NCBI GenBank assembly: GCA_029964075.1
Contig: CM057147.1
Location: 12,359,513-12,423,512 of the forward strand
Length of the DNA: 64,000 nt
Direction: 5' to 3'
DNA from: Patiria pectinifera
Taxonomy: Eukaryota > Echinodermata > Asteroidea > Valvatida > Asterinidae
How positions within the stretch are numbered: position 1 is the stretch's first letter; every line of letters begins with the position of its first letter. Made by a program: the position numbers and the translations under genes. Shown piece by piece: positions 13,579 through 63,718 of this stretch. The notes under the pieces were generated by a model that saw nothing but the letters and a program-made list of their open reading frames with translations, did no database searches and was not told where the DNA came from.

Positions 13579-13663
13579 ATGTATCTGAGCCGGAACACGG
13601 TGCAGGTGGTCTGTGCGGCCGTCGTGGTTCTGTGTGCTGTCCAACACGTCTTTGCGGTGCCAG
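13579..13663 (+). CDS. Mucin gene exon 1: signal peptide
   Basis: ATG followed by 27 further codons and one base, then the donor GTATAT. The peptide starts MYLSRNTVQV, has a hydrophobic core VVCAAVVVLCAV and ends QHVFAVP with a plausible signal-peptidase site after VFA. It ends in phase 1, matching the phase-1 start of the next exon found at 22598. Nothing else in the preceding 8 kb could start this gene. Joining it to the mucin exons 9 kb away is inference; intervening small exons may have been missed. No TATA box was recognised upstream. Confidence 0.7.
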
Positions 13664-15159
13664 GTATATAGCTTGAAAATTACACCCCGTGCTCTTAAAC
13701 ATGGATTTGTCTTTCCTCTAAACGAATTTTCAATTTGTATGTTCTGTTTTATTGACACAAAAATATTCTGATTTTAGGCGTCTGCCACCCTCTGAAAAAA
13801 GTGCTTTTATTTTGGGCATATCTAGAGAGCGAAAGTGTCTGACAGCCAAAACTAGAATTTTGCGAAGAAATAATTAAATAACTAAAATGTAGGTGGATTT
13901 TTTTTTTCGTTCGATGTCTATTTCAAACGCGAATTACCTTTATAATTCTAAAAAAAATAGCCATTAAAAAAAATCTATTTGTCGAGGTGAAACTCGAAAA
14001 ATTGCGTCTTTAACATTTTTCGTCGTACCGGTAGTAAAACATGCAAAGAAAATTGCTAACATTTAAGAAAAGTTTCAAATGAATGAAACACTTCGTTCAA
14101 AACTTGCAAATAGTGGTCATATCATCATGCGTTTGGTTTCGTACAGAAAAGTTCCACTGCTCACGATCACAAATATCCATCTTGCCATAAATTATTTAAC
14201 TTGATAATCCATGTGTTAAGGCTCTTTTTAGTTTAAACTTTATATGAAGTTGTGCATTTTTTGTGATATTCAAAATCATTTTCGACTTGTATTAGTTACA
14301 AATTTCGTTTCAAATTCGCTGAACTTAACTGCTCCGTGGAGTACCAAACGGGTCCAAATTAATGGATTTCAAACGCAATTAAAGTATCTTGTCGGCTAGG
14401 TTTTGAAAATTAGGTTTTGACAGTTCTGCACAACTGGGTGGATTTATTATCCGAATACGAAATATTATATATAAGAGCGGCAGCTTAATGAGTGCAGTTC
14501 TATTCCATTTCCAAACTAATTCTGTTTATGAATAAATTGAACAGTATGTGTTTTTGCTATGAATAGATCTTCTTCATGTAAAGACGGGCTCTCATAACCC
14601 GGCCGCATTAGACTCAATCATAGGGTACCATACTGGCTCCGTCTTAATCCAAATGCAGCATTTGGCTGGTAAAATAAGAGCGTGTCAAGAAAAACTCGTA
14701 TGATACAGTTTTTGTTTAAACACTTTTCACTTCAGCGTGCACCATGGTAGAATGCACCGAAGTAATCAAGACTTTTCCCCGAGACTTTCGGGACCTTTTT
14801 TATATTAGATCAGTTTTGTTTCAGAGACAAAAAAAACGTCGACAAGCAGTTTTTACTTGAAGTGTTACCCCCACCCAAAAAAAATACCAATCGTGGGAAC
14901 ATGTGCGAGTTAGGGTGCGTCCTACCTACAGGGAAGTTGCCGGCCCGATCACTCGACCAGTGCAGCACATGATCTCACTCGGACTCGCTCAATCTCGCTC
15001 ACTCGGACGTACTCTCCCGCTCGAACACACATCCACCAGAAATAGTCCAAGTCTGGAAAATATTCCAAACTGTTTTGATTTACTTGAGTCAAACTATACT
15101 CTTAGTGTTTGTAACTATTCTCCCTGTAACTCTTCCCATTTTTTAATGAAGAATATCAA

Positions 15160-15340
15160 CAGCTAAAATGCATTTTTTTCAGAGCCAAATCTCACCAATT
15201 TCTGTGAAGAGTTCCATTTCCCCAATCAAATGATAATTTTAAATCTACTTCATCAACGCTAAAACAGCTCAACTATTTTGTTATATAACTATGTGTCAGA
15301 AAGCACGGAAATAAATCTAAATCTAAATCTAACTAATGTC
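15160..15340 (+). mobile_element. Possible 3' end of a non-LTR element with AAATCT tail
   Basis: An AT-rich segment ends in about three AAATCT units at 15312-15332. Short tandem repeats at the 3' end are typical of CR1/L2-like LINEs. No coding part is visible. Confidence 0.35.
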
Positions 15341-15444
15341 AAAATCAAAGCGGCTCATCCGTGTTGGACTTAAATCAAATCAGATGTTCCATTGAAGTCC
15401 AACGGAAGGGGCTCAACTAAAAATATAATGCAGTAAGATGGTAA

Positions 15445-16090
15445 ACGTTTGACCTGCAACTTAATATTCTGAAACTAAATGATCTCTGCCACCATCGACT
15501 GGGTATACTTATGTTAAAATATACTCACAACATGCTCCCTCCAATTTTAAATCATCTATTCTCATTTACTTCTTCTGTTCATTCATATGAAACACGTAGT
15601 TCATCAAAAGGTGATCTGTTTGTGAGAAAAAATATAACTTCCTTTTTTAGAAACAGTCCATTTCAACGTGGTGTCATATACTGGAATGAACTCAACATTG
15701 GTTTAAAAGAGTGTACTACCGTGGTTTCATTTGCCCAAAAAAATTGAAAAAATCGATCATCAATACTTATACTTAACTTAAAAAAACAAAAACATTTTCG
15801 TCTCTGCTTTGCTTAGTCATTATTTTACATATTGTACAGGGTCTCACTCTTAAACCTATTGTCCTGTCTTAGTCCTGTATAGTTGGTTAAGTTTTGTCCT
15901 GTCCCAGGGAAAGGTACAAAAAGCAGTGCTTCACCTTTTTCCTTTACGTTGACATCATTTAATATTTACACTTAATTACATACTGTCTGTGAAGAATGTT
16001 TTGTTTATACATATATATACTGTTTTCTGTCTGAATTGTTTACCGAGGATGTCAATGTGAAAATTAATGTCGAATTGATTTAATTTGATT
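15445..16090 (+). mobile_element. 5'-truncated LINE (C-terminal end of reverse transcriptase ORF and 3' UTR)
   Basis: The frame from 15445 to 15747 encodes the region after the reverse transcriptase core of a non-LTR retrotransposon: LKLNDLCHHRLGILMLKY, then LLPPILNHLF-like text (read NMLPPILNHLF), YETRSSSKGDLF and RGVIYWNELN. These match the usual L-P, Y-x-T-R and G-x-x-x-W-N landmarks of CR1/jockey-like elements. The frame ends in TGA at 15745-15747 and an apparent 3' UTR runs to about 16090. Everything upstream of the C-terminal piece is missing, as expected from incomplete target-primed reverse transcription. Confidence 0.65.
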
Positions 16091-16445
16091 GGGAGCTTAT
16101 ATGAGGTGATAATTGTTAGGAATTTTCCTGATTTCAGGATTGAAGGAATCCCGTTTGAATTAGTGAAAATCTTTTTACATAGTGATATACATGTACAGCG
16201 AAATAAGCTGGTATTTACAAACCTACACCAAGTACAAACCTAAACCATAGACCCTATACATTGCTCTGATGGGAGCCTGAGCAGCTGTCACAACTGCCCC
16301 CAGAAATTAGGGCGGTGGAATTTTCGGGACTGGTTTTCCCACCCACAACTTCGTGCAAACACCAAGAATAATCCTCTCAGTTGTTCTGTATATTTACAAA
16401 TAAGTTAATATGCACAAACTGTAAATTTAAAGGCGACGAATAATC

Positions 16446-16645
16446 TTTACAAATATTATGTACAAATCCTTACGAATATTTTATTTACAGAATGAGGCGA
16501 TAGTGACCCTATAAATAATGTAGATCAAGGTCTAGGAGCCTGTGAAATCCAAGTGATGGGTATAAAACTCACCTTAGGTAAAGAAAATGGATCAATCAAT
16601 TAAATGCAGGAAAGTCAACAGCTTTAAGTATAGAACTTATAATTA
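16446..16645. repeat. Direct repeat copy 1 of about 200 bp
   Basis: Starts TACAAATATTATGTACAAAT and runs to about TATAGAACTTATAAT. It matches 17731-17946 with a few substitutions and small insertions. The two copies are in the same orientation about 1.3 kb apart, with GC-rich unrelated DNA (16840-17040) between them. Short terminal direct repeats of a small nonautonomous element, or a simple segmental repeat, are both possible. Confidence 0.6.
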
Positions 16646-22597: not shown

Positions 22598-25500
22598 ATC
22601 CACCGTCTTACACCACGAAGCCATATATTACTTGGTGCCTGTGTGATGGAACCACAGAATCCTCAACCACACCAATACCAAACACCCCAGGACCATCAGA
22701 TTACACAACAGGAGTCCAAGAGTCAACCAATGAAGTCTTAAAGACAACCCCTGAAGAAACAGAGTCAACCACTGAAGTCACAGCGTCAACCGCTGGAAGC
22801 ACAGAGTCAACCACTGGAGTCACAGCATCAGTTGCTGATGAAGCCACAACTTCAACTGCTGAAAACACAGAGTCAGCCGCTGAAAGCACAGAGTCAACCA
22901 CTGAAGCCACAACTTCAGCCGCTGAAGCCACAACTTCAGCCGCTGAAGCCACAACTTCAGCCGCTGAAAGCACAGCATCAGCCGCTGAAGCAACAGCTTC
23001 AGCTGCTGAAGCTACAACTTTAGCCGCTGAAGCCACAACTTCAGCCGCTGAAAGCACAGCATCAGCCGCTGAAGCCACAACTGCAGTCGCCGAGGCCACA
23101 ACTACAGCCGCTGAAGCCACAACTTCATCCGCTGAAAGCACAGCATCAGCCGCTGAAGCCACCAATACAGTCGCTGAAGCCACAACTACAGCCGCTGAAG
23201 CCACAAATTTAGCTGCTGAAAGCACAGCATCAGCCGCTGAAGCAAAAACTTCAGCCGCTAAAGGCACAGCATCAGCCGCTGAAGCCACAACTACAGCCGC
23301 TGAAGCCACAAATTTAGCTGCTGAAAGCACAGCATCAGCCGCTGAAGCAACAACTTCAGCCGCTAAAAGCACAGCATCAGCCGCTGAAGCCACAACTTCA
23401 GCCGCTGAAGCAACAACTTCAGCCGCTGAAGCAACAACTTCAGCCGCTGAAAGCACAGCATCAGCCGCTGAAGCCACAACTTCAGCCGCTGAAGCAACAA
23501 CTTCAGCCGCTGAAGCAACAACTTCAGCCGCTGAAAGCACAGCATCAGCCGCTGAAGCCACAACTACAGCCGCTGAAGCCACAACTACAGCCGCTGAAGC
23601 CACAACTACAGCCGCTGAAGCCACAACTACAGCCGCTGAAGCCACAACTACAGCCGCTGAAGCCACAACTACAGCCGCTGAAGCCACAACTACAGCCGCT
23701 GAAGCCACAACTACAGTCGCTGAAGCCACAACTACAGCCGCTGAAGCCACAACTACAGCCGCTGAAGCCACAACTACAGCCGCTGAAGCCACAACTACAG
23801 CCTCTGAAGCCACAACTACAGCCGCTGAAGCCACAACTACAGTCGCTGAAGCCACAACTACAGCCGCTGAAGCCACAACTACAGTCGCTGAAGTCACAAC
23901 TACAGCCGCTGAAGCCACAACTACAGCCGCTGAAGCCACAACTACAGCCGCTGAAGCCACAACTACAGTCGCTGAAGCCACAACTTCAGCCGCTGAAGCC
24001 ACAACTGCAGCCGCTGAAGCCACAACTGCAGCCGCTGAAGCCACAACTACAGCCTCTGAAGCCACAACTACAGCCGTTGAAAGCACAGCATCAACCGCTG
24101 ACGCAACAACTACAGTCGCTGAAGCCACAACTACAGCCGCTGAAGCCACAACTACAGCCGCTGAAGCCACAACTACAGCCGCTGAAGCCACAACTACAGC
24201 CGCTGAAGCCACAACTACAGCCGCTGAAGCCACAACTACAGTCGCTGAAGCCACAACTACAGCCGCTGAAGCCACAACTACAGCCGCTGAAGTCACAACT
24301 ACAGCCGCTGAAGCCACAACTACAGCCGCTGAAGCCACAACTACAGCCGCTGAAGCCACAACTACAGTCGCTGAAGCCACAACGTCAGCCGCTGAAGCCA
24401 CAACTGCAGCCGCTGAAGCCACAACTACAGCCTCTGAAGCCACAACTACAGCCGTTGAAAGCACAGCATCAACCGCTGACGCAACAACTACAGTCGCTGA
24501 AGCCACAACTACAGCCGCTGAAGCCACAACTACAGCCGCTGAAGCCACAACTACAGCCGCTGAAGCCACAACTACAGCCGCTGAAGCCACAACTACAGCC
24601 GCTGAAGCCACAACTACAGTCGCTGAAGCCACAACTACAGCCGCTGAAGCCACAACTACAGTCGCTGAAGTCACAACTACAGCCGCTGAAGCCACAACTA
24701 CAGCCGCTGAAGCCACAACTACAGCCGCTGAAGCCACAACTACAGTCGCTGAAGCCACAACTTCAGCCGCTGAAGCCACAACTGCAGCCGCTGAAGCCAC
24801 AACTGCAGCCGCTGAAGCCACAACTACAGCCTCTGAAGCCACAACTACAGCCGTTGAAAGCACAGCATCAACCGCTGACGCAACAACTACAGTCGCTGAA
24901 GCCACAACTACAGCCGCTGAAGCCACAACTACAGCCGCTGAAGCCACAACTACAGCCGCTGAAGCCACAACTACAGCCTCTGAAGCCACAACTACAGCCG
25001 CTGAAGCCACAACTACAGTCGCTGAAGCCACAACTACAGCCGCTGAAGCCACAACTACAGTCGCTGAAGCCACAACTACAGCCGCTGAAGCCACAACTAC
25101 AGCCGCTGAAGCCACAACTACAGCCGCTGAAGCCACAACTACAGTCGCTGAAGCCACAACGTCAACCGCTGAAGCCACAACTGCAGCCGCTGAAGCCACA
25201 ACTACAGCCTCTGAAGCCACAACTACAGCCGTTGAAAGCACAGCATCAACCGCTGACGCAACAACTACAGTCGCTGAAGCCACAACTACAGCCGCTGAAG
25301 CCACAACTACAGCCGCTGAAGCCACAACTACAGCCGCTGAAGCCACAACTACAGTCAATGAAGCCACAACTACAGCCGCTGGAGCCACAACTACAGCCGC
25401 TGAAGCCACAACTACAGCCGCTGAAGCCACAACTACAGCCGCTGAAGCCACAACCACAGTCGCTGAAGCCACAACTACAGTCGCTGAAGCCACAACTTCA

Positions 25501-26233
25501 GCCACTGAAAGCACAGCATCAGCCGCTGAAGCCACAACTACAGTCGCCGAGGCCACAACTACAGCCGCTGAAGCCACAACTACAGCCGCTGAAGCCACAA
25601 CTACAGCCTCTGAAGCCACAACTACAGCCGTTGAAAGCACATCATCAACCGCTGACGCAACAACTACAGCCGCTGAAGCCACAACTACAGCCGCTGAAGC
25701 CACAACTACAGCCTCTGAAGCCACAACTACAGCCGTTGAAAGCACAGCATCAACCGCTGACGCAACAACTACAGTCGCTGAAGCCCCAACTACAGTCGCT
25801 GAAGCCACAACTACAGCCGCTGAAACCACAACTACAGCCTCTGAAGCCACAACTACAGCCGTTGAAAGCACAGCATCAACCGCTGACGCAACAACTACAG
25901 TCGCTGAAGCCACAACTACAGCCGCTGAAGCCACAACTACAGCCGCTGAAGCCACAACTACAGCCGCTGAAGCCACAACTACAGCCGCTGAAGCCACAAC
26001 TTCAGCCGCTGAAGCTACAACTACAGCCGCTGAAGCCATACCTACAGCCGCTGAAGACACACCTACAGTCGCTGAAGCCACATCATCAGCCGCTGAAGCC
26101 ACAGCGTCAGCCGCTGAAGTCCCACAGCCAGCCGCTAAAGTCCTAAAGTCATTAAAAAGAGTCCGTGAGTCAGCAACGCCCATTTGGTGTTACTGTGGAA
26201 GTGCGTCTGAGCCAACAGTATCAACAACTGAAG
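22598..26233 (+). CDS. Mucin gene exon 2: Thr/Ala/Glu mucin domain (1212 codons)
   Basis: Acceptor ATCCCACAG before 22598, donor GTAATG at 26234, phase 1 at both ends, 3636 bp. Read in the frame that starts at 22600 I found no stop, and every spacing measured between variant repeats is a multiple of 21 bp. It opens with PPSYTTKPYITWCLCDGTTE, continues with ESTTE-type text, then about 150 heptads of the type AAEATTT with ESTAS variants, and closes with ATPIWCYCGSASEPTVSTTE. This is a dense O-glycosylation (PTS) domain bracketed by two W-C-x-C motifs that may form disulfides. The frame has no ATG, so start-codon-based gene finding misses it. Confidence 0.85.
22900..26110. repeat. 21-bp coding minisatellite with higher-order repeats
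   Basis: The basic unit GCCGCTGAAGCCACAACTAC plus A is 21 bp (seven codons). The marker variant GTTGAAAGCACAGCATCAAC recurs at 24076, 24454, 24853, 25231, 25630, 25735 and 25861, spaced 378, 399, 378, 399, 105 and 126 bp. So blocks of 18 or 19 heptads were themselves duplicated. Confidence 0.9.
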
Positions 26234-29078: not shown

Positions 29079-30380
29079 GCCCAGTCACATCAACCACAGG
29101 CTGGGGCACATCAGCCATAGGCCCATCAACCACAGGCCCAGGCACATCACCTATAGGCCCACCAACCACTGTCCCAGGCACATCAACCATAGGCCCATCA
29201 ACCACGGGCCCATCAACCACAGGCCCAGGCACATCAACTGTAGACCCATCAACCACAGGCCAAACAACCACAGGCCTGGGCACATCAGCCATTGGCCCAT
29301 CAACCAAAGGCCCAGGCATATCAACTATAGGCCCATCAACCACAGGCCAAACCACCACAGGCCCGGGCACATCAGCCATACGCCCATCAACCAAAGGCCC
29401 AGGCACATCAACTATAGTCCCATCAACCACAGGCGAAACCACCACCGGCCCGGGCACATCAGCCATAGGCACATCAGCCATAGGCCCAATAACCACAGGC
29501 CCAGGCATATCAACTATAGGCCCATCAACCACAGGCCCTTCAACCACAGGCCCAGGCACATCAACTATAGGCCCATCAACCACTGGTCCATCAACCACAG
29601 GCCACGGCACATCAACTACAGGCCCATCAACCACAGACCCAGACACATCAACTGTAGTTCAATCAACCACAGAACCATCAACCGCTGTCCCAGGCCCATC
29701 AACCACAGGCCTATCAACTACAGGCCCGGGCACATCAGCCATAGGCCCATCAACCACAGTTCCAGGCACATCAACCATAGGTCCATCAGCCACGGGCCCA
29801 TCAACCACAGGCCCAGGCACGTCAACTATAGACCCATCAACCACAGGCCCATCAACCACAGGCCCATCAACCACAGGCCCAGGCACATCAACCACAGGCC
29901 CATCAACCACAGGCCCAGGCACATCAACCACAGGCCCATCAACCACAGGCCCAGGCCCATCAACCACAGGCCCATCAACCACAGGCCCAGGTCCATCAAC
30001 CACAGGCCCATCAACCACAGGCCCAGGCACATCAACCACAGGCCCATCAACCACAGGCCCAGGCCCATCAACCACAGGTCCATCAACCACAGGCCCAGGC
30101 ACATCAACTACAGGCCAACCAACCACAGGCCCAGACACATCAACCATAGGCCCAGACACATCACGGACAAATGCACCACCCACAGAGATAACTGCAACAC
30201 CCACAGAGACAACTGCGCTACCCACAGGGACAACTGCGCCATCCACAGGAACAACTGTGCCACCCACAGGGACAACTGCGCCACCCACAGGGACAACTGC
30301 GCCACCCACAGGGACAACTGCGCCACCAACAGGGACAACTGCGTCACCGACGGGGACAACTCTGACACCAAGTACCGGCG
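29079..30380 (+). CDS. Mucin gene exon 3: Thr/Pro/Gly/Ser mucin domain (434 codons)
   Basis: Acceptor TTCTTCAACCACAG before 29079 and donor GTAAAAG at 30381, phase 1-1, 1302 bp open throughout. The peptide is TGP-STTGPGTS-type repeats (for example TGPGTSTTGPSTTGPGTS), then about ten TAPPTGT heptads and LTPSTG at the end. This is a second PTS domain of a composition different from exon 2, without cysteine or aromatic residues. The ATG at 29060 lies in the intron and is not a start. Both other plus frames and the minus strand stay open for long stretches because of the repeat. Confidence 0.82.
29085..30360. repeat. Coding minisatellites of the second mucin exon
   Basis: Up to about 30165, units built from CATCAACCACAGGCCCA in 15-18-bp steps form a roughly 33-36-bp composite. 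From 30173 there are 21-bp units ACTGCGCCACCCACAGGGAC plus A. The late units (29840-30110) are the most uniform, which suggests recent expansion there. Confidence 0.8.
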
Positions 30381-39743: not shown

Positions 39744-39835
39744 TAAAGTCATTGCGGGTGGCCAATTCAAGGTTTACTACTTTTTGCTGATGCTCCAATA
39801 TATCTTTTAATATAATGGTTCTTTTTGTTCAACAG

Positions 39836-43195: not shown

Positions 43196-43447
43196 ATAAT
43201 GAAGATCCAGTAGTTACCTGTCCAGAAAACATTGAGCAGCGATGCACAGTGACAGATGATGTTGTAGTTAATTGGCCCACACAACCATCGGCAATGGATA
43301 ATGTGGATGGTTCCATCAGTGTTAATGACATCACCTGTGACGCAACATCAGGTGGAGTGTATTCAATCGGAGTGACATCTGTGACATGCACGGCACGGGA
43401 CTCAGCAATGAACCAAGGAATGTGTACATTCACTATCACAGTCATTG
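43196..43447 (+). CDS. Mucin gene exon 9: HYR domain 6 (B type)
   Basis: Acceptor TGTTTTGATTTAG, donor GTACGT, phase 1-1, 84 codons. Like exon 5 but with one extra residue in ENIEQRCTVTDD and with TSVTCTARDSAMNQGMC. Its duplicate is exon 13. Confidence 0.9.
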
Positions 43448-44277
43448 GTACGTCAGTCTGAAATCACTTCCAAATCGTTTTAATCAGTTATTTTCTGTTT
43501 TAACATGAAGCACCAGTTGATGATTTGTGTGTAATGTTATTAATCAAGTCGCTACAAAAACACGCTCTTCTTGCAGTTGGGGTAGTGTAAAATATACTGC
43601 TTCCCTTTTACGAACAATGAAGGTTAATTTTAGACAATGGGTGTTCCTCCGCAAATAAAATTATGTCCAATTCAATTTGTGATATATCACGATAATGTAA
43701 TTACAGGAATATGGTCTGTTCATATTAAGTTTTCTTCTTGGATTTGTGCACATATACGAATAAATAGTTTTAAGGAAAAGAAATAAAAGATAATGAAATC
43801 ATCTCAGACTTGTTCAGTTTATTTTACAGATATTAAGGATCACACAACTTTATAAAAAAAAACACCAAATCTACAATAGGCTTAACAAAAATCAAAACTT
43901 GCCTTATTTATTCAGTTTGAAATCACTTCCAAATCGTTTTAATCAGTTATTTTCTGTTTTAACATGAAGCACAAGTTGATGATTTGTGTCTAATGTTATT
44001 AATCAAGTCAAATGTGATTAATTATGCGGTGTATTCCATCAAAAACATTTTTTTGTACTGTCATATGAGAGGCATAAATTATTGTTTGAAAGTTTCCAGT
44101 ATATTTTAAAGACATGTAGAGTCTCGTAAATTTGTTTAAAAGAAAATCAGCAAAAGGTCACAGGAAATCACGCTAACATGATTTTCTGGTTGTGTGTGTA
44201 TTACGAACTGAGGCCATAAAGCGTCTGGATTTGAAAGGACTCATCACGTACTTGCAAAACAGAAACATACACACTTA

Positions 44278-44508
44278 GGGAACGTCTTAAAAGTTGGAAT
44301 GTTCCACCAGTACATATCGCCCGTTCTAATCGGGAACATACGTTGTCTCAACTGGGAACAGCCTGGGAAAGCCAGGGTGATCTCGTGTGGGAATGTTGGT
44401 CTATGCGCGTGCACGCTCATTCAGGAGCGGGCCTGTTTGGAACACACAGTGTCTATAAAAGGAACGTTCAATAGGGAACAGGAACATTCCCACTCTTGAG
44501 ACGCTTCC
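44278..44508 (+). mobile_element. Mariner-like MITE, 231 bp (duplicated copy)
   Basis: Same as 39513-39743 apart from a single base in the right part (GGGAACGGG against GGGAACAGG). It is flanked by the same TA and the same outside sequence, so it was copied with the segment and is not an independent insertion. Confidence 0.75.
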
Positions 44509-44599
44509 TAAAGTCATTGCAGTGGCCAATTCAAGGTTTACTACTTTTTGCTGATGCTCCAATATATCTTTTAATATAATGGTTCTTTTTGTTCAACAG

Positions 44600-44854
44600 C
44601 ATCAGAATCAGCGCCACCATCACTGACTGTGCCAAGTGTAAGTGATCAAAACACTGATGAAGGCAAATCAACTGCTTCAGTGAGCTGGCCAACAATCACT
44701 GCTATCAACTCTGACGGTCTACCCATCACATGTTTACCAGGTGACGTCCTTCTAACAGGAGGCATGTTTGGCGTCGGATGTCATACTATCACCTGCAGTG
44801 TCACTAACTTGGCTGGTTGCCCTGTTTCAGAAAGCTTCACATTCAAGGTCTCAG
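44600..44854 (+). CDS. Mucin gene exon 10: HYR domain 7 (A type)
   Basis: Copy of exon 6: acceptor TTCAACAG, donor GTATGT, phase 1-1, 85 codons. Only difference seen in the protein: NLAGCPVSES instead of NLAGCTVSES, close to a conserved cysteine. Confidence 0.88.
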
Positions 44855-46253
44855 GTATGTAAGTGGGAAATGTTAAAGTTAGTCACTTGAGTGATCCCAT
44901 TTGCTATTTCTCGTGTCTGTAGCATTGCTAGTGTCGTGACTTTGGGCATGATCCATAGCTACATGATCGTGCAAAAACTTCGTAACTGCCAAATTTGTCA
45001 AAATTCAGCTTTTTGGTAATTGTATCAAAATTTACCAAAAGATTATTACAGGAGAGTTTCATTAAAAGTATTGTTACATTATGACGTAATGGTTAAAATC
45101 ATAAGGTCGTATCTCAATTACCAGTAAATGAATGAAAGCGGAACATTGTATCTCAGCGCGTTTATATACGTTTGTGTTTGTGCATTGAAACGTCGTACCT
45201 CAAAAGTCATCAAAATACATGTTCGTGTGCTGATGTGACACCAGTTAAGTTTACTTTTGAATTTCCTTAAAACCAAATTAATACATTTAAAAAACAACAT
45301 AAACAAGTGTTATTTTATAATAAAAATGATAAGTTTGTAGAAAAGATAAGAATCAGAAATGAAGTAAATCGAAAATAATAGAAATATTAGACTAAAGACT
45401 ATTCCTGCACTAAACAAGATGCTACTGGGAATTACATGTATTAACAAACTTCTCGAATTGAACTAAGTTGAACACATGCACACTGTTCAATTCTTTGATA
45501 TTTTTTTGGAATTATAATAAAGATATTTCGTGACTTTAGCCAATTGAAGTTGAAAGTGCTAAAGTAATGGGGCCTTAGTGTGGGCTCATTCCGAAACGTC
45601 GTATCTCGACCAGTTATGACGTTTTGACAAAATTTTACGTAGCGCCATCTCAAGCAAACATGTTGTATGTTGATCTCATTCATTTAAAAGATCTCTCATC
45701 CAAAATCACATGGGACAACAAAGTATCCAACATGCTGAACATGTTTCTGACTAAATTGTTTTGATGAGGTTACTTTACCTTTTAATGAACCGCAAACATT
45801 AAACGTGCCATCGCAAACCTATTAATCCATTTTTCTCAAAAGGACTCAAAACTGAGTTACGACGTTTGCACTTACACTTTTTGAGTGGGCGTCGCAACAG
45901 TTGTTTTTTTTTCTGGAGGGCAAAGCACATCCCCTCCACGGAATCCATGTACTTTTCGAGGCTGTTCTCAAATTATCATTTCTCGAGGTTGGGCAGGGAC
46001 TCCATTAACTGAACAACAATATGACTTCGCTCCTCCTTTTCTTTCTTTTCTTTTCCTTTGTATTTGTTTGTTTGTTTGTTGGGGCGTTAGGGTGTTTGTT
46101 TGTTTGTTTTTGGTTGCTTTTTCAGAGGAATGGGGATAATTTCTGATAAGAACTGCAGCAAATTGTAGGTACTCATGGCATGTGAAAAACTGCTTACACG
46201 AATAGATCTTTCTATATGTATGAGATATGTATTCCTTTACTGTTTTGTTTTAG

Positions 46254-46502
46254 ATAATGAAGATCCAGTAGTTACCTGTCCAGACGACATTGAGGAATGC
46301 ACTATGACAAATGATGTTGTAGTTAATTGGCCCACACAACCATCGGCAATGGATAATGTGGATGGTTCCATCAGTGTTAATGACATCACCTGTGACGCAA
46401 CATCAGGTGAAGTGTATGCAATCGGAGAAATACATGTGACATGCATGGCACAGGACTCAGCAATGAACCAAGGAATGTGTTTATTCACTATCACAGTCAT
46501 TG
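46254..46502 (+). CDS. Mucin gene exon 11: HYR domain 8 (B type)
   Basis: Copy of exon 7, same encoded peptide, same splice sites, phase 1-1, 83 codons. Confidence 0.9.
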
Positions 46503-47108
46503 GTACGTCAGTTTGAAATCACTTCCAAATTGTTTTAATCAGTTATTTTCTGTTTTAACATGAAGCACAAGTTGATGATTTGTGTCTAATGTTATTAATC
46601 AAGTCCCTACAAAAACACGCTCTTCTCGCAGTTGTGAGTAATGTAAAAATATACAGCTTCCCTTCTTCGAACACTGAAAGTTAATTTGAGAAAATAGACG
46701 TTCCTTTGCTAATAAAATTATTTCCATTTCAATTTGTGATATATCACAATAATGTAATAACAGGAATATGGTCTGTTCATATTAAATTTTCTTCTTGGAT
46801 TTGTGCACATATTCGACTAAATAGTTTAAAGGAAAAGAAATTAAAAGATAATGAAATCATCTCAGACTTTTTTAGTATATTTTAGAGATAATTGAGGATC
46901 ACACAAGTAAAAAAAAAAAAATCAATAACAGGCTAAAAAAAAAATCAAAACTTGCTTTATCTATTGACTGTTTATCCATTTCAACTTCTGCCCAGAGAAT
47001 GTCTGGTTTTGACAGGACGCATCACATACTTGCACGGGAGAATTGTACACCCATAAGTCATCGACGATGAATGAGTATTCGTAATGGTTCGTTTATTTGT
47101 CTCCACAG

Positions 47109-47360
47109 CCTCACCATCACTGACTGTGCCAAGTGTAAGTGATCAAGTCACCGATGGTGGTCAGTCAACTGCTTCAGTGAGCTGGCCAACAATCACTGCT
47201 ATCAACTCTGACGGTCAACCCATCACATGTATAGACTCTTTAGAAGGTGAAGTCAGTCTTACAGGAGGCATGTTTGGCGTCGGATATCATGCAATCACCT
47301 GCTGTGTCACTAACTTGGGTGGTTGCACTGGTTCAGAAAGCTTCACATTCACTGTAAGAG
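47109..47360 (+). CDS. Mucin gene exon 12: HYR domain 9 (A type)
   Basis: Copy of exon 8, same encoded peptide including YHAITCCVTNLGGCTGSES, phase 1-1, 84 codons. Confidence 0.88.
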
Positions 47361-47954
47361 GTAAGAACATGTTTCAAGTATATAGACAATAAATGCCACA
47401 GATACTTGGCAACAAACCTTTTAGCTATAAATAGGGAAATAAATTGGCTGGTTTTAAACTAATACGTTGAAAACCGGTTAGGATCCGGACACTGGTGCTA
47501 AACGTGAACCGTCACCTTTGGTTCTGGTTCAGTTTGGATTTGGTACGGCAAATTGTATCCGAAAATTGGGTCGGTTTCAGTAGCAAATTAGAATTTCAAA
47601 ACGAGATGCTGTGTGAGTGATCACCCAATCTTGTGCCAGAATAAACCAAGCCACACCACAATGCTGTTGCACACCTCATTCCATCAGGTCACGATGTTAA
47701 TGTAAAAGAATCATCAGCTCAAAAATAGTTGGCTGGCAAAAACAGATAGATTACCAGCCAAAATTCAGTGTGATGCACAGTGTCATGGTTTCCAGTTAAT
47801 TGTTGCTTGCTTACCATAAAATTAAGTTAGCTCAGCAATAATTTCTGCTAAAAAAAATCTTCACTGAATCTTTCAGTAAACGTTCAATGTTCAGAGTGAA
47901 TGTTATTTTAATTTTGTTACAAGAGAGTTGTATTTTTTTCCTGTTTTGATTTAG

Positions 47955-48206
47955 ATAATGAAGATCCAGTAGTTACCTGTCCAGAAAACATTGAGCAGCG
48001 ATGCACAGTGACAGATGATGTTGTAGTTAATTGGCCCACACAACCATCGGCAATGGATAATGTGGATGGTTCCATCAGTGTTAATGACATCACCTGTGAC
48101 GCAACATCAGGTGGAGTGTATTCAATCGGAGTGACATCTGTGACATGCACGGCACGGGACTCAGCAATGAACCAAGGAATGTGTACATTCACTATCACAG
48201 TCATTG
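47955..48206 (+). CDS. Mucin gene exon 13: HYR domain 10 (B type)
   Basis: Copy of exon 9, same encoded peptide with EQRCTVTDD, phase 1-1, 84 codons. The upstream intron differs by one T in the run before the acceptor. Confidence 0.9.
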
Positions 48207-48816
48207 GTACGTCAGTCTGAAATCACTTCCAAATCGTTTTAATCAGTTATTTTCTGTTTTAACATGAAGCACCAGTTGATGATTTGTGTGTAATGTTATT
48301 AATCAAGTCCCTACAAAAACACGCTCTTCTTGCAGTTGGGAGTAGTGTAAAAATATACTGCTTCCCTTTTACGAACAATGAAGGTTAATTTTAGACAATG
48401 GGTGTTCCTCCGCAAATAAAATTATGTCCAATTCAATTTGTGATATATCACGATAATGTAATTACAGGAATATGGTCTGTTCATATTAAGTTTTCTTCTT
48501 GGATTTGTGCACATATACGAATAAATAGTTTTAAGGAAAAGAAATAAAAGATAATGAAATCATCTCAGACTTGTTCAGTTTATTTTACAGATATTAAGGA
48601 TCACACAACTTTATAAAAAAAAACACCAAATCTACAATAGGCTTAACAAAAATCAAAACTTGCCTTATTTATTGGCTGTTTATCCATTTCAATTTCTGCC
48701 CAGAGAATGTTTGATTTTGACAGGACGCATCACATACTTGCACGGGAGAATTGTACACCCATAAGTTATTGACGATGAATGAGTATTCGTAATGGTTCGT
48801 TTATTTGTCTCCACAG

Positions 48817-49068
48817 CCTCACCATCACTGACCGTGCCAAGTGTAAGTGATCAAGTCACCGATGGTGGTCAGTCGACTGCTTCAGTGAGCTGGCCAACAA
48901 TCACTGCTATCAACTCTGACGGTCAACCCATCAAATGTATAGACTCTTTAGAAGGTGAAGTCAGTCTAACAGGAGGCATGTTTGGCGTCGGATCTCATAC
49001 AGTCACCTGCTGGGTCACTAACCTGGCTGGTTGCACTGTTTTTATAAGCTTCACATTCACTGTAAGAG
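48817..49068 (+). CDS. Mucin gene exon 14: HYR domain 11 (A type)
   Basis: Acceptor GTCTCCACAG, donor GTAAGA, phase 1-1, 84 codons. Third member of the subfamily of exons 8 and 12, outside the recent duplication and more diverged: GQPIKCIDSL, GVGSHTVTCWVTNLAGCTVF and ISFTFTVRG. Confidence 0.88.
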
Positions 49069-49728: not shown

Positions 49729-49986
49729 ACAATGGATATCCAATAGTTACCTGTCCAGAAAACATCGAGAGATGCACAATGACAAATGATGTTGCAGTTT
49801 ATTGGCCTACACAACCATGGGCAATAGATAATGTGGATGGTTACATCAGTGTCACATGTAGAAATCAGAATAGCAACGTAGTGACATCAGGTGAAGTGTA
49901 TGCAATCGGAAAGACAACTGTGACATGTACAGCACAAGACTCAGCATGGAACCAAGGAATGTGTGCATTCACTATCACAGTCATCG
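49729..49986 (+). CDS. Mucin gene exon 15: HYR domain 12 (B type), last and most diverged
   Basis: Acceptor CCTGTTTTGTTTTAG, donor GTATGT, phase 1-1, 86 codons. DNGYPIVTCPENIERCTMTN, VAVYWPTQPWAIDNVDGYIS, an insertion TCRNQNSNVVTSGE, then KTTVTCTAQDSAWNQGMCAF and TITVIG. It closes the array of six A-B pairs before the NIDO exons. Confidence 0.9.
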
Positions 49987-50736
49987 GTATGTCAGTTTGG
50001 CGTCATTTCTTCTATTATTTTTGTCGTCATTTCTTTTATTCTTTTATATCCGCAACAGGCTCATTGTATCAGGTATCAGTTGCAGGTTTCTGAACAACAT
50101 CCCTGTCTCTTTCCGCAATGGAAATAATGAACATTATTTACAAACTTTGTTTTGAGAAGATTCTGAGTTATTGAGAATCCTGGAAATATGCCCAATGCAA
50201 ACCAATACATCATCAACCAGCGATCCCATTCCAGTCTACACCTTCAACTTCCCCAAAGCCCACGTACATACACTTGTTACGGTCAGCGGGCATTTAGGAA
50301 GCATCATATATAAGTAATTCGTTATTAATTTATTATAATACTACGGACATGTTGCAAATAAAGATGTCTGCAGTTTGTCCTGAATATTTAATGGTTGCCT
50401 CCTAATTTCCTGGCATCCCATGAAGGTCCTATGTCTCGCCAATCACATCTTTTACAAAAACTCCGAAATTCCAGTGGACCAATTATTTTCATCTTCCTTC
50501 ATCATAGTCAGAGACTATGGTTGGTCGAAACTCTTCATTTTAAAATGGCGCTTTGAAACTCTACACTTTTTTTTTCTGATTGTAAACTAAGGAATCAATT
50601 GAAAGGTCTAGTGGATACTCCCAAGCAAAATTTAAAATGAGCATTTTGATTTTGCTAAGCCATCCTGTCTGAACTCGACCAATTTGATTGACGTGGAATC
50701 TTAAAAGTTGATGTTTGTTTTCTTTTATTTGAGCAG

Positions 50737-50795
50737 CATCTAGTCTTGTTCCATTTGGGGTTGGAGACAGTGCACTCTCCAGTGTCAGTCAACCA
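50737..50795 (+). CDS. Mucin gene exon 16: start of NIDO domain
   Basis: Acceptor TTTATTTGAGCAG, donor GTGAGT. Phase 1 in, phase 0 out. SSLVPFGVGDSALSSVSQP: the LVPFG...GD...L start typical of NIDO (nidogen extracellular) domains. Confidence 0.82.
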
Positions 50796-51092: not shown

Positions 51093-51099
51093 GTAAGTA

Positions 51100-52080: not shown

Positions 52081-52260
52081 TTCACTGACAACGGTGTGAT
52101 TATCCTGTCCAATAATCGACGAGTCAGACGTACAATCTACAAACAAGCATTCCCGAGTACTTTCAGTTCCTCTTTCAACGGCAACGTTAAAATGATAGCT
52201 CCATTCTGGGCAGACGTCCGAGCCGATGCATTTGACTCCACAAACAATGTGTTTTGGCAG
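52081..52260 (+). CDS. Mucin gene exon 18: NIDO domain core
   Basis: Acceptor TTCTTGTTATCAG, donor GTATGT, phase 0-0, 60 codons. FTDNGVIILSNNRRVRRTIY and NVKMIAPFWADVRADAF: the N-G-x-I segment and the IAPFWADV signature of NIDO. Confidence 0.92.
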
Positions 52261-53290: not shown

Positions 53291-53428
53291 CTTTATGACA
53301 ACCCTTCGACGGATAGTACCATGTTGCGTACTTTGAGTAATATCGTGTCAGCACAGTATGGCAGCTTCTTGGCCAATTGGGTCCTCGTCATCACGTGGAG
53401 TAATGTCCAGTCTGTCTCATTGTCTCCT
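53291..53428 (+). CDS. Mucin gene exon 19: NIDO domain continued
   Basis: Acceptor TTTTTATGCTAG, donor GTAAGT, phase 0-0, 46 codons. LYDNPSTDSTMLRTLSNIVS, then AQYGSFLANWVLVITWSNVQ and SVSLSP. The WVLVITWxxV strand is typical of NIDO. Confidence 0.92.
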
Positions 53429-54233: not shown

Positions 54234-54687
54234 GAGACCAACACCTTCCAAGCTATACTATTGACAAACGGAGAACATAGTTATGTTATCTTTAACTACG
54301 ATCCATGCGGCATGAATTGGGACCCAGTCTACTTATATAACCATTACGTCATCCAGGGTTTTACGTGTGGGCGGTTTGAACGGAAGGTTTATGTGGACTT
54401 ACTGGGTAGATCCGTGTTCCGCCCTGGTAGCGTCGTAGGCAATTCTGGAATGGTAGGACGTTGGGTTTACCAGCTGGATACTCTCCATGCCAACTTCATC
54501 AATCCTCGTCTCTTCTGCTATAATTGGTATTATCGACAGAGAAGTAGCTATATCTTCTTCCTGTATTTGTATGCTGGGAGGGTTGCCAACACCTGCCCAT
54601 GCAGTCTGCAGAGTGCTCGGCGGGACAGGAGATGGGTACCTATTCCATATTCCTACGTCCTTCCCACGCATTTTTCGCTAGGATTCG
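54234..54687 (+). CDS. Mucin gene exon 20: end of NIDO, start of AMOP
   Basis: Acceptor TTTTTTTCAG, donor GTGAGT; phase 0 in, 1 out. ETNTFQAILLTNGEHSYVIF and NYDPCGMNW finish NIDO. After VVGNSGMVGRWVYQLD comes the AMOP start: FCYNWYYRQRSSYIFFLY, ANTCPCSLQSARRDRRWVPI. The C-P-C-S-L-x-x-A-x-x-D stretch is characteristic of AMOP. Confidence 0.92.
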
Positions 54688-55220: not shown

Positions 55221-55400
55221 CTACTATTTGCTACGTCCGGCGTTTGCAGTTGCCATGGTTACCTGGCCCACAATGTTGCTATAACATACCAAGATGTGAT
55301 TTTCTCAGGGGTGTTCTGAGTGCCGGAGTTGCTTCAATCATGGAACCATTTCAATTAAGTCCTTTGTTCTTCTCAACCAGTCGATTTAACAGTTGGTATG
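55221..55400 (+). CDS. Mucin gene exon 21: AMOP domain continued
   Basis: Acceptor TTTTACTTCAG; donor GTAGGT at 55401 chosen because it keeps phase 1 and joins to the AMOP tail. ATICYVRRLQLPWLPGPQCC, YNIPRCDFLRGVLSAGVASI and STSRFNSWY. The G-P-Q-C-C-Y motif matches the AMOP core. The frame stays open to a TAA at 55478-55480, so the donor rests on phase and family fit. Confidence 0.85.
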
Positions 55401-55867: not shown

Positions 55868-55978
55868 ATCAAGGAGTCTTAGTGCGCTATTACTGCTGTG
55901 AGCAGTCTTCATTGTGTCGTCTGTACAGACGATGGAGACCAATTCAGAGCTGTCGGAGATATCGCCCGCCTAGGCGGA
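55868..55978 (+). CDS. Mucin gene exon 22: end of AMOP
   Basis: Acceptor AACCTTGACAG, donor GTAAGT, phase 1-1, 37 codons: QGVLVRYYCCEQSSLCRLYR, RWRPIQSCRRYRPPRR. The Y-x-C-C-x-x-S-x-x-C-x-x-Y and Y-R-P-P pattern matches the AMOP-to-VWD joint of MUC4-like proteins. It is very arginine-rich. Confidence 0.85.
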
Positions 55979-57252: not shown

Positions 57253-57473
57253 GCTGGACCTTTGGCGACCCACACATGAGGACACTGGATGGTTTGGACT
57301 ACACCTTCAATGGTCTGGGTGAATACACTATGGCTCTCATTGATGATGACGATGGACAGAGACAGTTTGAACTACAAGGCAGGACACAGCGAGCGTTGAA
57401 CTCTGAAACCCAGCAACTATCTGAAGCAACATTCTTTGCTGGATTCGCTGCTGAATATGTTGGTGATGCAAGG
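57253..57473 (+). CDS. Mucin gene exon 23: start of VWD with GDPH motif
   Basis: Acceptor CCAAATTGTAG, donor GTGAGC; phase 1 in, 0 out. SWTFGDPHMRTLDGLDYTFN, GLGEYTMALIDDDDGQRQFE, LQGRTQRALN. This is the VWD start; G-D-P-H (57264-57275) is the autoproteolysis site known in MUC4 and in some gel-forming mucins, cleaved between Asp and Pro. Confidence 0.93.
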
Positions 57474-57821: not shown

Positions 57822-57900
57822 ATTGAGATCAAACTAAACAGTGACGGAACCGATTTGGAAACCAAAGTTAACGGTGCGAGTGTCACACCCACAGCAGATG
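57822..57900 (+). CDS. Mucin gene exon 24: VWD continued
   Basis: Acceptor GTTTGTTTCAG, donor GTGAGA; phase 0 in, 1 out. IEIKLNSDGTDLETKVNGAS and VTPTAD: beta-strand text of the VWD-like module. Confidence 0.85.
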
Positions 57901-57957
57901 GTGAGAACTGGTTACATACCATGGACAGTGGTTTAGGAATTCCTACACATTAATAGT

Positions 57958-58997: not shown

Positions 58998-59162
58998 GAT
59001 TACTTATTGGCAATTTCACCGTACTAAGAGAGGAGGATCCAATCAAAATCATCGCAGTCTACCAGGCAGATATTCAGTTCTCTGTTGGAGTCAGTAACAG
59101 CTTTGCTGACATCACCACACAACTGAGTGAAGACTACATGTACAAAACCAAGGGATTACTGG
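58998..59162 (+). CDS. Mucin gene exon 25: VWD continued
   Basis: Acceptor GATGATTTCAG, donor GTAAGC, phase 1-1, 55 codons. LLIGNFTVLREEDPIKIIAV, VGVSNSFADITTQL and YMYKTKGLLG, which leads into the G-L-L-G-x-x-D-G/N turn of VWD. Confidence 0.9.
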
Positions 59163-59892: not shown

Positions 59893-60009
59893 GTGTATGG
59901 GATGGGGACACAAGTAACGATGCTCTGAGACGTGATAACACCCAACAGACAGCAACTGGTCCAAATGGAGAACTGTCTGAACAAGACTTCTTTGCATTTG
60001 GTCAAACGT
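59893..60009 (+). CDS. Mucin gene exon 26: VWD end
   Basis: Acceptor TATGTGCAG, donor GTAAGT, phase 1-1, 39 codons: GVWDGDTSNDALRRDNTQQT, GELSEQDFFAFGQT. Joined to exon 25 it gives GLLGVWDGDTSND, the calcium-site turn of the domain. Confidence 0.9.
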
Positions 60010-60793: not shown

Positions 60794-60833
60794 AGTGAAT
60801 TCGTATCGATGTGTGACCTTTGACCTCGTGCAG

Positions 60834-61094
60834 GGGCCATCCCAGAGAGTGATTCCCTCTTCTTCTACGTTCCGCCGGGTGAGAGTTTTTCTAATATGAA
60901 CGATCCCAGTTTCACACCAAAGTTCCTGGACAATCTCACGAGTGAAGCCGATCCAGCAAAGTTCCAAGCCGCTCAAGATGCCTGCGGAAATAACAAAGTG
61001 TGTTTGTATGATGCCTTGGCAACGGGTAGTACGGATATCGGTGTGGCATCTATGCAACTCAGTGAGCAGAATACCATTGACATGATGGCAGCAA
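60834..61094 (+). CDS. Mucin gene exon 27: MUC4-type segment after VWD
   Basis: Acceptor CTCGTGCAG, donor GTAAGT, phase 1-1, 87 codons. WAIPESDSLFFYVPPGESFS, FTPKFLDNLTSE, AAQDACGNNKVCLYDALATG and STDIGVAS. The W-x-I-x-E-S-x-S-L-F-x-Y opening and the A-C-G-N-N-x-x-C-x-Y-D motif are characteristic of the region after VWD in MUC4, SUSD2 and related proteins. Confidence 0.92.
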
Positions 61095-61623: not shown

Positions 61624-61776
61624 GCAATTTCCCACCCAATGTCACACTGGTCGAGACAGTTGAGGTAGTTGTTGGACAACCCTTCATACTGCAGATACAA
61701 GCCGTTGATCCTGATGGAGATGACATATCATATGAGTTACTGGAGGTGATTCCAGGGGCGACTATTTCATCGCCAG
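61624..61776 (+). CDS. Mucin gene exon 28: Ig-like/cadherin-like linker
   Basis: Acceptor ATATTTTCCAG, donor GTTAGT, phase 1-1, 51 codons. NFPPNVTLVETVEVVVGQPF, ILQIQAVDPDGDDISYELLE, VIPGATISSP. The A-V-D-P-D-G-D-x-I-x-Y motif is the usual start of a beta-sandwich module, also present at this place in MUC4-like proteins. Confidence 0.88.
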
Positions 61777-61969: not shown

Positions 61970-62154
61970 GAGGCCAATTCACATGGACACCAGCTGATAG
62001 GTCAAAGGTCACCCTCGGCTTCCTGGTGACTGATGGGAAAGCAAATGCAACATTGGAACCGATAGTCAAGCTCTGTGACTGTAAGAATGATGGTACATGT
62101 CTGTATGATGAGTATGTGGAGGGCACTAACGTCATCACAGATGGCCGTTTTGGG
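61970..62154 (+). CDS. Mucin gene exon 29: linker end and first Cys of EGF-like region
   Basis: Acceptor TGTTAACTACAG, donor GTAAGG; phase 1 in, 0 out. GQFTWTPADRSKVTLGFLVT, DGKANATLEPIVKLCDCKND, GTCLYDEYVEGTNVITDGRF. It completes the beta-sandwich (F-x-W-T-P) and starts an EGF-like fold at CDCKNDGTC. Confidence 0.9.
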
Positions 62155-62395: not shown

Positions 62396-62754
62396 CAGGG
62401 CTGTGCATCGAAACCGGGTACCCGAGTACCCGAGTACCAGTACCCGACCATTGATGTCAGGAATCGGTTCCAGTTTATGGGATCGGGTACCCAAAATCAA
62501 CTTTACAAATAACTTAGTAACTTCTCAGCCATAGCCAGGCTACATGAAAAACAAAGCATATTTTTACGTTTAAGATGCTCACGAAAGTTGCAGTTTCCAC
62601 CGTAAAACTACTGTACACACTTGTATCTTGCTGCATAACAAGTGGACCTTTCTAAACGATCTCAACAGCAACTTCTGAAATTTGAATTTTTGAAATGGGT
62701 TTTCAATCGGGTACCCTGTTCCCGTACTACTACCTGTAAATGCACACCCCTATA
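62396..62754. mobile_element. hAT-like MITE, about 359 bp
   Basis: The left end CAGGGCTGTGCATCG and, in reverse complement, the right end TATAGGGGTGTGCAT form short inverted repeats. The 8-bp direct repeat GCACCCAC flanks them at 62388-62395 and 62755-62762, the hAT target size. GGGTACCCGAGTACC motifs lie inside both ends. No coding capacity. Confidence 0.7.
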
Positions 62755-62816
62755 GCACCCACACAAGATACCTGCATGTGCTGAATGACTAACATTCTGG
62801 TCTTAATCATTTCCAG

Positions 62817-62997
62817 GTTGTGTTATGTAACTGCACACCCGGCTGGTCAGGTGACTTCTGTGAGATGAACTATGACGCCTGTCAAGACAACCCCTGCTTC
62901 TTAGGAGTGGCGTGTTTTGATGATGACCCACCATCTTTAAATTTCACCTGCGGATCTTGTCCAGAAGGAACTGAGGGAGACGGCAAGTCCTGCATTG
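62817..62997 (+). CDS. Mucin gene exon 30: EGF-like domains
   Basis: Acceptor ATCATTTCCAG, donor GTATGC; phase 0 in, 1 out, 60 codons. VVLCNCTPGWSGDFCEMNYD closes one EGF repeat (C-x-C-x-P-G-W-S-G-x-x-C). ACQDNPCFLGVACFDDDPPS and CGSCPEGTEGDGKSCI make up another cysteine-rich repeat. Confidence 0.92.
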
Positions 62998-63344
62998 GTA
63001 TGCTGAGGATTTCTTGATCTTTCTCTGCAAGAACTTCATCTGAGCATGCTTATATGGACTCCCCCCCCCCCACAAATGTGGATACGTAACTGCACGTTTA
63101 CCTCCCCACACTGTCTCACAGTGTGTTGCAGTCGTGTGGCACATATACACTTTAGCTGTGAGCTCGAGTCTTCTGTGAACACTTGCATATTAAGCTAGTC
63201 GTCCATTTAGGAGAAGTATAAAACTAAAGTGGTAGGGATGAACACACGTTAAATAGCTAAAATCTCTAATGTTGTTTTCATTGCAAAGTATATATGTTTG
63301 AACCCCTCAAACAAATGTCACTAATAAGCCACGTCTAAATAACT

Positions 63345-63429
63345 TGGCTACTGATTGTAGTAACGCACATGTCTATGGGATGAGGCTGCAGCTACTCCAT
63401 AGGCGCATATGTAATTGCAAGCCATAGCC
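63345..63429. mobile_element. Foldback MITE of about 85 bp, copy 2
   Basis: GGCTACTGATTGTAGTAACG...GTCTATGGGA pairs with TCCATAGGCGCATATGTAAT and GCCATAGCC. It is a relative of 60709-60793. Confidence 0.6.
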
Positions 63430-63571
63430 TTATAATTCTGAAATGACCATATTAAGAAAAATATTTAGAAGGTTGATATTTTTGGGCAGTCTTTATAACA
63501 CGTGATTTTGTCAGTGGTTTGGATATTGCTTCAAATATTACGCAATGTATCTGTGTTGCCTTTCTATACAG

Positions 63572-63718
63572 ATATTGATGAGTGTGTTGTGTACAGAGAT
63601 GAGCCAGCCAGAAATAACGGACGGGGATGTGATCAAAATTGTGTCAACACCCTCGCTAGCTTCAACTGCAGCTGCAACTCTGGCTATTCCTTGTTTGTTG
63701 ACGGCAAACGATGCATCG
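63572..63718 (+). CDS. Mucin gene exon 31: calcium-binding EGF domain (gene continues off the window)
   Basis: Acceptor TTTCTATACAG, donor GTAGGT at 63719, phase 1-1, 49 codons. DIDECVVYRDEPARNNGRGC, DQNCVNTLASFNCSCNSGYS and DGKRCIG: a cbEGF with the D-I-D-E-C calcium motif. No stop codon or transmembrane segment has been reached, so the gene runs past the right edge. Confidence 0.93.

Follow-up and report, generated by a model that had tools for sequence, protein, structure and literature searches.

Vertebrate MUC4 is laid out as signal peptide, mucin, NIDO, AMOP, VWD, EGF and transmembrane (TM) segment, in that order. Hyalin is secreted, consists chiefly of HYR repeats and has no membrane anchor. 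In PMC9080433 and PMC8660890, the features given for vertebrate MUC4 are a signal peptide, a long mucin domain, NIDO, AMOP, a VWD with a GDPH motif, EGF and TM; the former source also describes MUC4 as the transmembrane mucin without SEA and cites the hypothesis that SEA domains were formerly present in the MUC4 lineage. According to PMC9080433, a NIDO-AMOP-VWD core and a TM segment are present in the mucin4-like proteins of Actinia tenebrosa, some of which possess additional N-terminal domains and a C-terminal SEA. These additions in cnidarians are CUB, ZP and FN3 (PMC9080433), as opposed to the HYR repeats described below. The sea star footprint proteins Sfp5 and Sfp7, which are linked to adhesion, pair HYR with FAMeT domains (PMC9382459). 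The words HYR and hyalin are absent from the main text of PMC9080433, as are NIDO, nidogen and AMOP from that of PMC9382459, and the accessible parts of the literature surveyed were not found to name any protein with both HYR and a MUC4-type core.

We analyzed a 64,000-nt stretch of the Patiria pectinifera genome (the window) and its flanking DNA, and modeled one gene that spans about 67 kb, from position 13579 to window-equivalent position 80241, and very probably codes for a MUC4-type type I membrane mucin with 12 HYR before NIDO. The model comprises 57 exons, all on the + strand and with AG/GT borders, in an uninterrupted frame of 14,469 nt (4,823 residues). The predicted protein starts with a signal peptide, two mucin domains, 12 HYR, NIDO, an AMOP-like region, a VWD with GDPH and C8-3_MUC4. 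An Ig-like linker, EGF and many calcium-binding EGF (cbEGF) domains, a SEA-like segment, a run of EGF domains and a second SEA-like segment (GSVVA) follow, and the chain would end with one EGF, a TM helix and a tail of about 70 residues. A first-pass annotation made from the sequence had listed a signal peptide, two unlike mucin domains, 12 HYR, NIDO, AMOP, VWD (GDPH), the MUC4 linker and EGF/cbEGF in series, and exons in this order were indeed recovered in one open frame, with an AMOP-like region at the place of AMOP and C8-3_MUC4 after VWD. Its endpoint at 63718, however, is not the end of the gene, as 27 further exons extend the model some 16 kb beyond the window. It should be noted that the exon borders were picked by the analyst with phase agreement in view and that most joints are phase 1; the open frame is therefore no independent test of the model. 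Long introns (about 9 kb and 7 kb) lie on either side of the mucin exons, and a further exon may be hidden in them. Nine other open reading frames in the window gave no Pfam match. A search for COX1 found no match. A SALMFamide-1 pattern occurred once, against 0 times in the reversed control; S1 was isolated from starfish (PMC4772807). Other echinoderm classes are not known to have this exact peptide, which makes a sea star the probable source.

The signal peptide, mucin, NIDO, VWD with GDPH, EGF, TM and C8-3_MUC4 match are shared with vertebrate MUC4, whereas the 12 HYR before NIDO and the numerous cbEGF exons set the protein apart, as would the two SEA-like segments, which are weak; the AMOP-like region, if it is AMOP, is strongly diverged. 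Unlike in hyalin, HYR account for only about 1,008 of the 4,823 residues, and a TM stretch follows. Hyalin, Sfp5 and Sfp7 are likewise echinoderm extracellular proteins with HYR repeats (PMC9382459). The gene appears to be a MUC4-type membrane mucin of a new variant layout, in which an HYR array is joined to the MUC4 core, and this bears on how HYR repeats are used by echinoderms to build surfaces for adhesion or protection.

Exon 1 (13579..13663) carries the ATG at 13579 and the putative signal peptide MYLSRNTVQVVCAAVVVLCAVQHVFAVP, and ends in a phase-1 donor. The matching exon of the closest relative, on contig C10 (C10:757004-757081), is 92% identical over 26 residues. Scanning 13-54 kb for an ATG with a hydrophobic core and a phase-1 donor gave four candidates on the + strand and none on the − strand. 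The start at 13579 is the most hydrophobic; the others lie at 49946 (within HYR 12, in another frame), 52756 (in a NIDO intron) and 53321 (within a NIDO exon). By eye, an ATG frame at 27817 also looked signal-peptide-like; it is absent from the starts listed by the scan. In a genome search, the DNA of the signal-peptide exon was seen only at the window gene and in two copies at the C10 relative, so a 5′ end of this kind is supported for these two genes only.

The two mucin exons differ in repeat type and composition, in agreement with the two unlike mucin domains annotated initially. Exon A (22598..26233) encodes 1,211 residues of 7-residue TTTAAEA-type repeats with WCxC motifs on the flanks; it is T/A/E-rich (35.1% T, 34.8% A, only 1.2% P), and its donor is conserved in the C10 relative. 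Exon B (29079..30380), with a counterpart at C10:786900, encodes 433 residues of PSTTGPGTST-type PTS repeats (34.4% T, 18.9% G, 17.1% P, 13.6% S). These compositions fit Thr/Ser-rich mucin domains that would be O-glycosylated.

Twelve HYR exons, all of phase 1-1 with AG/GT borders, span 37205-49986. Six are of a diverged type, namely HYR 1 (37205..37456), 3 (39836..40090), 5 (42352..42603), 7 (44600..44854), 9 (47109..47360) and 11 (48817..49068); the canonical ones are HYR 2 (38893..39141), 4 (41499..41747), 6 (43196..43447), 8 (46254..46502), 10 (47955..48206) and 12 (49729..49986). Over the whole array, Pfam HYR scored 289.3 bits, with 10 stretches significant on their own; as single repeats, the canonical HYR 6 scored 49.4 bits and the diverged HYR 5 scored 21.1, for a cut-off of 21.7. 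Both the presence of 12 hyalin repeats between mucin and NIDO and their foreignness to a vertebrate-style MUC4, as first annotated, are borne out by these exons. Fold prediction of HYR 11 gave one model with a pLDDT of 85.5 and four with 42-46; the predicted fold had no PDB match with E ≤ 0.001, and the weak matches include beta-rich adhesin and cadherin domains.

Part of the array is repeated in tandem. HYR 3-6 (39435..43912) and HYR 7-10 (44200..48673) lie in two 4.5-kb blocks that are 99.35% identical over 4,484 columns (13 mismatches, 13 gap openings), so that a real haplotype might carry 8 HYR. Such identity is what would be expected of one locus entered twice, as two haplotypes, during assembly, although a young duplication would look the same. 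Both copies lie within one 34.6-Mb contig, and relatives also have similar, regularly spaced HYR arrays, which speaks against this inflation; we consider it possible, if rather doubtful, that the true array holds 8 repeats. The blocks can be either a real duplication or an assembly duplicate.

Downstream of the array, NIDO begins with an N-terminal exon at 50734..50795 (SLVPFGVGDSAL), continues at 52081..52260 and 53291..53428 (WVLVITWSNV) and ends within 54234..54687, where the AMOP-like region starts; the latter proceeds through 55221..55400 and 55868..55978. VWD is encoded at 57253..57473, with GDPH at the exon start (kept in the C10 relative), 57822..57900, 58998..59162 and 59893..60009. 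The C8-3_MUC4 exon (60834..61094; PF23263, 42.7 bits, cut-off 25) is followed by an Ig/cadherin-like linker exon (61624..61776; Big_9, 26.0 bits, cut-off 23.6) and by one with the linker end and the EGF start (61970..62154). NIDO (93.4 bits, cut-off 25) and VWD (55 bits) are above their Pfam cut-offs. The AMOP region reached 14.7 bits against a cut-off of 25; the same region of five of six relatives matched AMOP with 13.5, 16.5, 23.7, 18.6 and 25.7 bits, some of these matches being partial and only one exceeding the cut-off, and that of the sixth had no AMOP match. The MUC4-type core annotated as NIDO-AMOP-VWD-linker is thus supported by sequence comparison for NIDO, VWD with GDPH and C8-3_MUC4, but AMOP can be assigned only tentatively. 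When the NIDO-VWD part was searched against PDB sequences, the VWD of FCGBP was the only match at E below 0.001; the nine matches up to E 1 include MUC5AC and an unrelated enzyme.

An EGF exon (62817..62997) and the first cbEGF-type exon (63572..63718) follow, and the model goes on beyond the window. EGF_CA scored 307.5 bits over 63572-70569, mostly outside the window, and EGF was also above the Pfam cut-off, which agrees with the EGF/cbEGF exons annotated after the core. The first SEA-like segment scored 13.5 bits, behind an unrelated family at 14.0, and the second reached 19.4 bits in context, or 14.5 when searched by itself (cut-off 26.4 for both). If these weak segments derive from SEA, their presence in a MUC4-type gene bears on the past SEA domains hypothesized for the MUC4 lineage. 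The last exon (window-equivalent 79934-80241) encodes a hydrophobic stretch, judged from sequence to be a TM helix, a tail and the stop codon; it has 33 other matches in the genome. A donor-like site at 80226 could alter the final residues.

We propose that the precursor would be cut in VWD at GDPH, as the motif suggests, and perhaps also at the membrane-proximal SEA-like segment. The outer part would then bear NIDO-AMOP together with the HYR row and the glycan brush; the inner EGF-SEA-TM part would anchor it at an epithelial surface and contact the cell interior through the tail. The HYR row between brush and core may be an Ig-like segment, extended and exchangeable, that acts as a spacer or in binding. 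The initial description as a surface or cuticle mucin with adhesive repeats is favored as to 'surface' by the predicted TM helix and tail outside the window, whereas 'cuticle' and 'adhesive' would be conjectural.

A search with the NIDO-AMOP exon, in which 83 of 296 candidates were scored, revealed at least 33 loci in the genome (window included), 24 of them on C10. Places of HYR were taken from 79, 30 and 7 matches in three lists, each made of the best 150 of 1,483, 578 and 1,813 candidates. Among the matches listed, HYR lay upstream in sense within 30 kb at 14 or more of the 33 loci (window included), and neither downstream nor in antisense within 60 kb at any; the remaining listed matches within 60 kb of these loci, checked by eye, were all sense and upstream. 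Six of the other 19 loci were read directly, and all six carry two to four HYR exons in sense in the 10 kb upstream, with no antisense HYR at these loci and none in 60 kb of control stretches. Since HYR is sense and upstream of NIDO wherever it was found (20/33 loci), the linkage looks like a family architecture rather than adjoining genes, and HYR seems to characterize the family rather than the window gene alone. A TM-tail homologue was found in sense downstream within 60 kb at 17 of the 33 loci (window included) and not at the other 16; matches upstream at five loci and in antisense at four were read as neighboring genes.

These data bear on whether two or three separate genes, a mucin/HYR gene and a MUC4-type gene, merely stand in tandem. 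The phase-1 exons could be spliced otherwise, the 27817 frame might offer another start, and the C10 relative has an extra copy of its 5′ region 5 kb upstream, indicating that partial copies do occur. Against this stand the recurrent order of HYR and NIDO, the HYR exons flanked by open mucin frames on both sides in the C10 relative, and the scan between exon 1 and NIDO, whose only candidate was 49946. We find separate genes very improbable, and the annotated union of mucin, HYR and NIDO in one predicted gene, with an open frame and no convincing rival first exon, is well supported.

A separate search gave four further NIDO loci outside the 33: C7:23577690 has sense HYR upstream and TM downstream, and C10:16037969, C538 and C10:22962888 have neither among the matches listed. 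HYR was seen neither in the 8 kb ahead of one NIDO locus on C14 nor at 18 NIDO loci with 1.5-kb flanks (one matching the second half of NIDO), stretches too short for a claim of absence. Contig C13 has rows of many HYR exons, like the window gene, with no NIDO match among those listed in two NIDO searches.

The best-matching relative (C10:757004-822793) is colinear with the window gene from signal peptide to TM. The NIDO-side flank is 80.6-86.1% identical between the two, but the HYR segment does not align as DNA, suggesting that this segment turns over or moves; the place of the array relative to mucin exon B also differs. Unlike HYR segments in such fairly recent duplicates (dS 0.164) offer a direct handle on domain-cassette turnover. 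They also invite the view of a fast-turning recognition family, in which members swap HYR arrays because these bind partners that vary (microbes, gametes or cells of the same species), with the mucin part being secondary. The number of loci, their concentration on C10 and the 33 further tail matches would fit, yet the pattern would be no different if two ancestral arrays had been lost reciprocally, and we hold this view to be unlikely. Slightly less likely again is its fuller form, a C10-concentrated family of MUC4-type membrane receptors exchanging whole HYR cassettes at varied positions between brush and NIDO above a conserved tail, as a candidate mucin-based recognition system (immune, gamete or self). 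The membrane mucin reading accords with the 20 of 57 exons compared with the C10 relative, which have no stops and a summed dN of 0.055, for a ratio to dS of 0.34; by this estimate, the core exons that were compared show ordinary constraint, which also counts against a fast-turning family. Mucin exon A was excluded from the sum (7 gaps and 2 stops in a forced repeat alignment). In three of the 20 exons (SP, VWD3 and lnk2), dN exceeds dS, on few changes.

The start of the predicted MUC4-type gene was confirmed by sequence reading, as exon 1 (13579-13663, forward strand) encodes a clear signal peptide and ends in a phase-1 donor. It is followed on the same strand by mucin exons A (22598-26233) and B (29079-30380), 12 hyalin repeat (HYR) exons between 37205 and 49986, every one of them phase 1-1 and bounded by AG and GT, NIDO exons starting at 50734, 52081, 53291, and 54234, AMOP-like exons starting at 54234, 55221, and 55868, VWD exons (57253-60009), and a C8-3_MUC4 exon starting at 60834, after which come an Ig-like linker and EGF exons. 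The first-pass annotation ended the gene at 63718, but the frame runs on: the ~30 kb read beyond the window add numerous EGF/cbEGF exons, two SEA-like segments and, last, a transmembrane (TM) stretch and a tail, with the stop codon after window-equivalent position 80241. The resulting 57-exon model comprises 4,823 codons without an internal stop; because splice signals and reading phase guided the choice of exon borders, this open frame is consistent with the modelled splicing and does not prove it. An open frame at 15445-15744 resembles by eye the end of a LINE reverse transcriptase, with no Pfam match, and a 33-bp tandem repeat array (56659-56899) lies in the intron preceding VWD. The stretch 26297-26861, which overlaps a 166-aa open frame, is probably a repeat rather than an exon, as it recurs twice, with stops, in the best-matching related locus on contig C10 (C10:783746 and C10:786080).

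The mucin, HYR, and NIDO parts had been assigned to one gene, and their genomic neighbourhoods support this. Searching the genome (613.5 Mb, 1,020 contigs; the window is C19:12359513-12423512) with the NIDO-AMOP exon, with 83 of 296 candidates scored, gave at least 33 loci, window included. The same genome contains a single SALMFamide-1 coding pattern, which marks it as that of an echinoderm and probably of a sea star. Among the HYR matches listed, 14 of the 33 carry HYR upstream in sense within 30 kb, and none carries HYR downstream or antisense within 60 kb. The 10 kb upstream of six of the other 19 loci were read directly: all six contain sense HYR exons (2 to 4 each) and none in antisense, and 60 kb of control stretches contain no HYR exons. 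Since the neighbourhood is one-sided and same-strand in these 20 loci (14 from listed matches, six read directly), the pattern is hard to explain unless the HYR exons are part of the NIDO-AMOP gene. Separate genes would each need a first exon, and no convincing rival was found: a simple signal-peptide-exon scan from exon 1 to NIDO gave only 49946, within HYR12 in a different frame. An ATG frame at 27817-28083, unlisted by that scan, has a signal-peptide-like start by eye and may be an alternative start. Homologues of the TM tail lie downstream in sense within 60 kb at 17/33 loci; those upstream (5/33) or antisense (4/33) were taken for neighbouring genes.

The domain search of the joined exons bore out most of the proposed architecture, with HYR, NIDO, VWD, C8-3_MUC4, EGF_CA, EGF and, for the linker, Big_9 all above the Pfam cut-offs; AMOP fell short (14.7 bits, cut-off 25). 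In six relatives this region scored 13.5, 16.5, none, 23.7, 18.6, and 25.7 bits. Because AMOP scores thus recur (13.5-25.7 bits, one of six without a match), we take the region for a diverged AMOP whose window copy, by itself, is under the cut-off. Against a SEA cut-off of 26.4 bits, the second SEA-like segment reached 19.4 in context and 14.5 alone, and the first 13.5, below the 14.0 of an unrelated family. The second contains GSVVA, kept in the C10 relative, which presumably resembles the SEA cleavage motif. Canonical and diverged types alternate along the HYR row.

MUC4 is described as putatively self-cleaved at its GDPH site, giving one subunit with the mucin part and another, held in the membrane, with the EGF part (PMC8660890). 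By analogy, the HYR row would sit on the outer subunit, with the glycan brush on one side and NIDO on the other. HYR is tied to adhesion in hyalin and sea-star footprint proteins (PMC9382459), and the window protein could likewise be adhesive. According to PMC9080433, which also cites the view that SEA was lost from MUC4, cnidarian mucin4-like proteins have extra CUB, ZP, FN3, and SEA domains. In the accessible parts of the open PMC literature, no description of HYR and NIDO-AMOP-VWD within one protein was found; figure legends of PMC7853314 carry both sets of abbreviations and do not tell whether they concern one protein, and HYR and AMOP are absent from the available text of a review on echinoderm matrix (PMC10381214).

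The DNA of the nearest relative (C10:755-825 kb) aligns with that of the window in introns as well as exons, beginning upstream of exon 1. Its order is a signal-peptide exon, a mucin-A-like open frame, a PTS frame and 10 HYR exons, after which come two further mucin frames, the latter of them corresponding to mucin B. NIDO, AMOP-like, VWD, C8-3, EGF, second SEA-like, and TM exons follow. Over the 20 exons compared, all outside C10:805001-815000, dS was 0.164 and dN 0.055 (ratio 0.34), with no stops; dN exceeded dS in three (SP, VWD3, and lnk2), with few changes each. This locus carries two copies of the 5' region that includes the signal-peptide exon, ~5 kb apart (C10:751431-751852 and C10:756762-757183; 90% and 88% identity).

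DNA pieces shared with this relative are 80.6-86.1% identical on the NIDO-side flank and mostly 81.5-94% (one 73%) on the 5' side; from 30.2 to 50.7 kb of the window, no piece aligned above the printed score. HYR protein matches between the two, among those listed, are 34-49% identical, and the array lies 3' of mucin exon B in the window and 5' of the matching frame in the relative. These sequence comparisons suggest either that HYR cassettes were exchanged or moved whole or that two ancestral arrays were reciprocally lost. The array of the window also contains two copies, 99.35% identical, of a 4.5-kb block that carries four HYR exons (39435-43912, HYR 3-6; 44200-48673, HYR 7-10); either the block was duplicated recently or the assembly entered it twice.

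Contig C10 (23.8 Mb of the 613-Mb genome) holds 24 of the 33 NIDO-AMOP loci. Several pairs of loci score equally and are possibly duplicated haplotypes. At C10:14179272-14222799, a very long HYR array, with dozens of repeats ~0.8 kb apart among the matches listed, stops 8 kb short of a NIDO locus that lies downstream of it.
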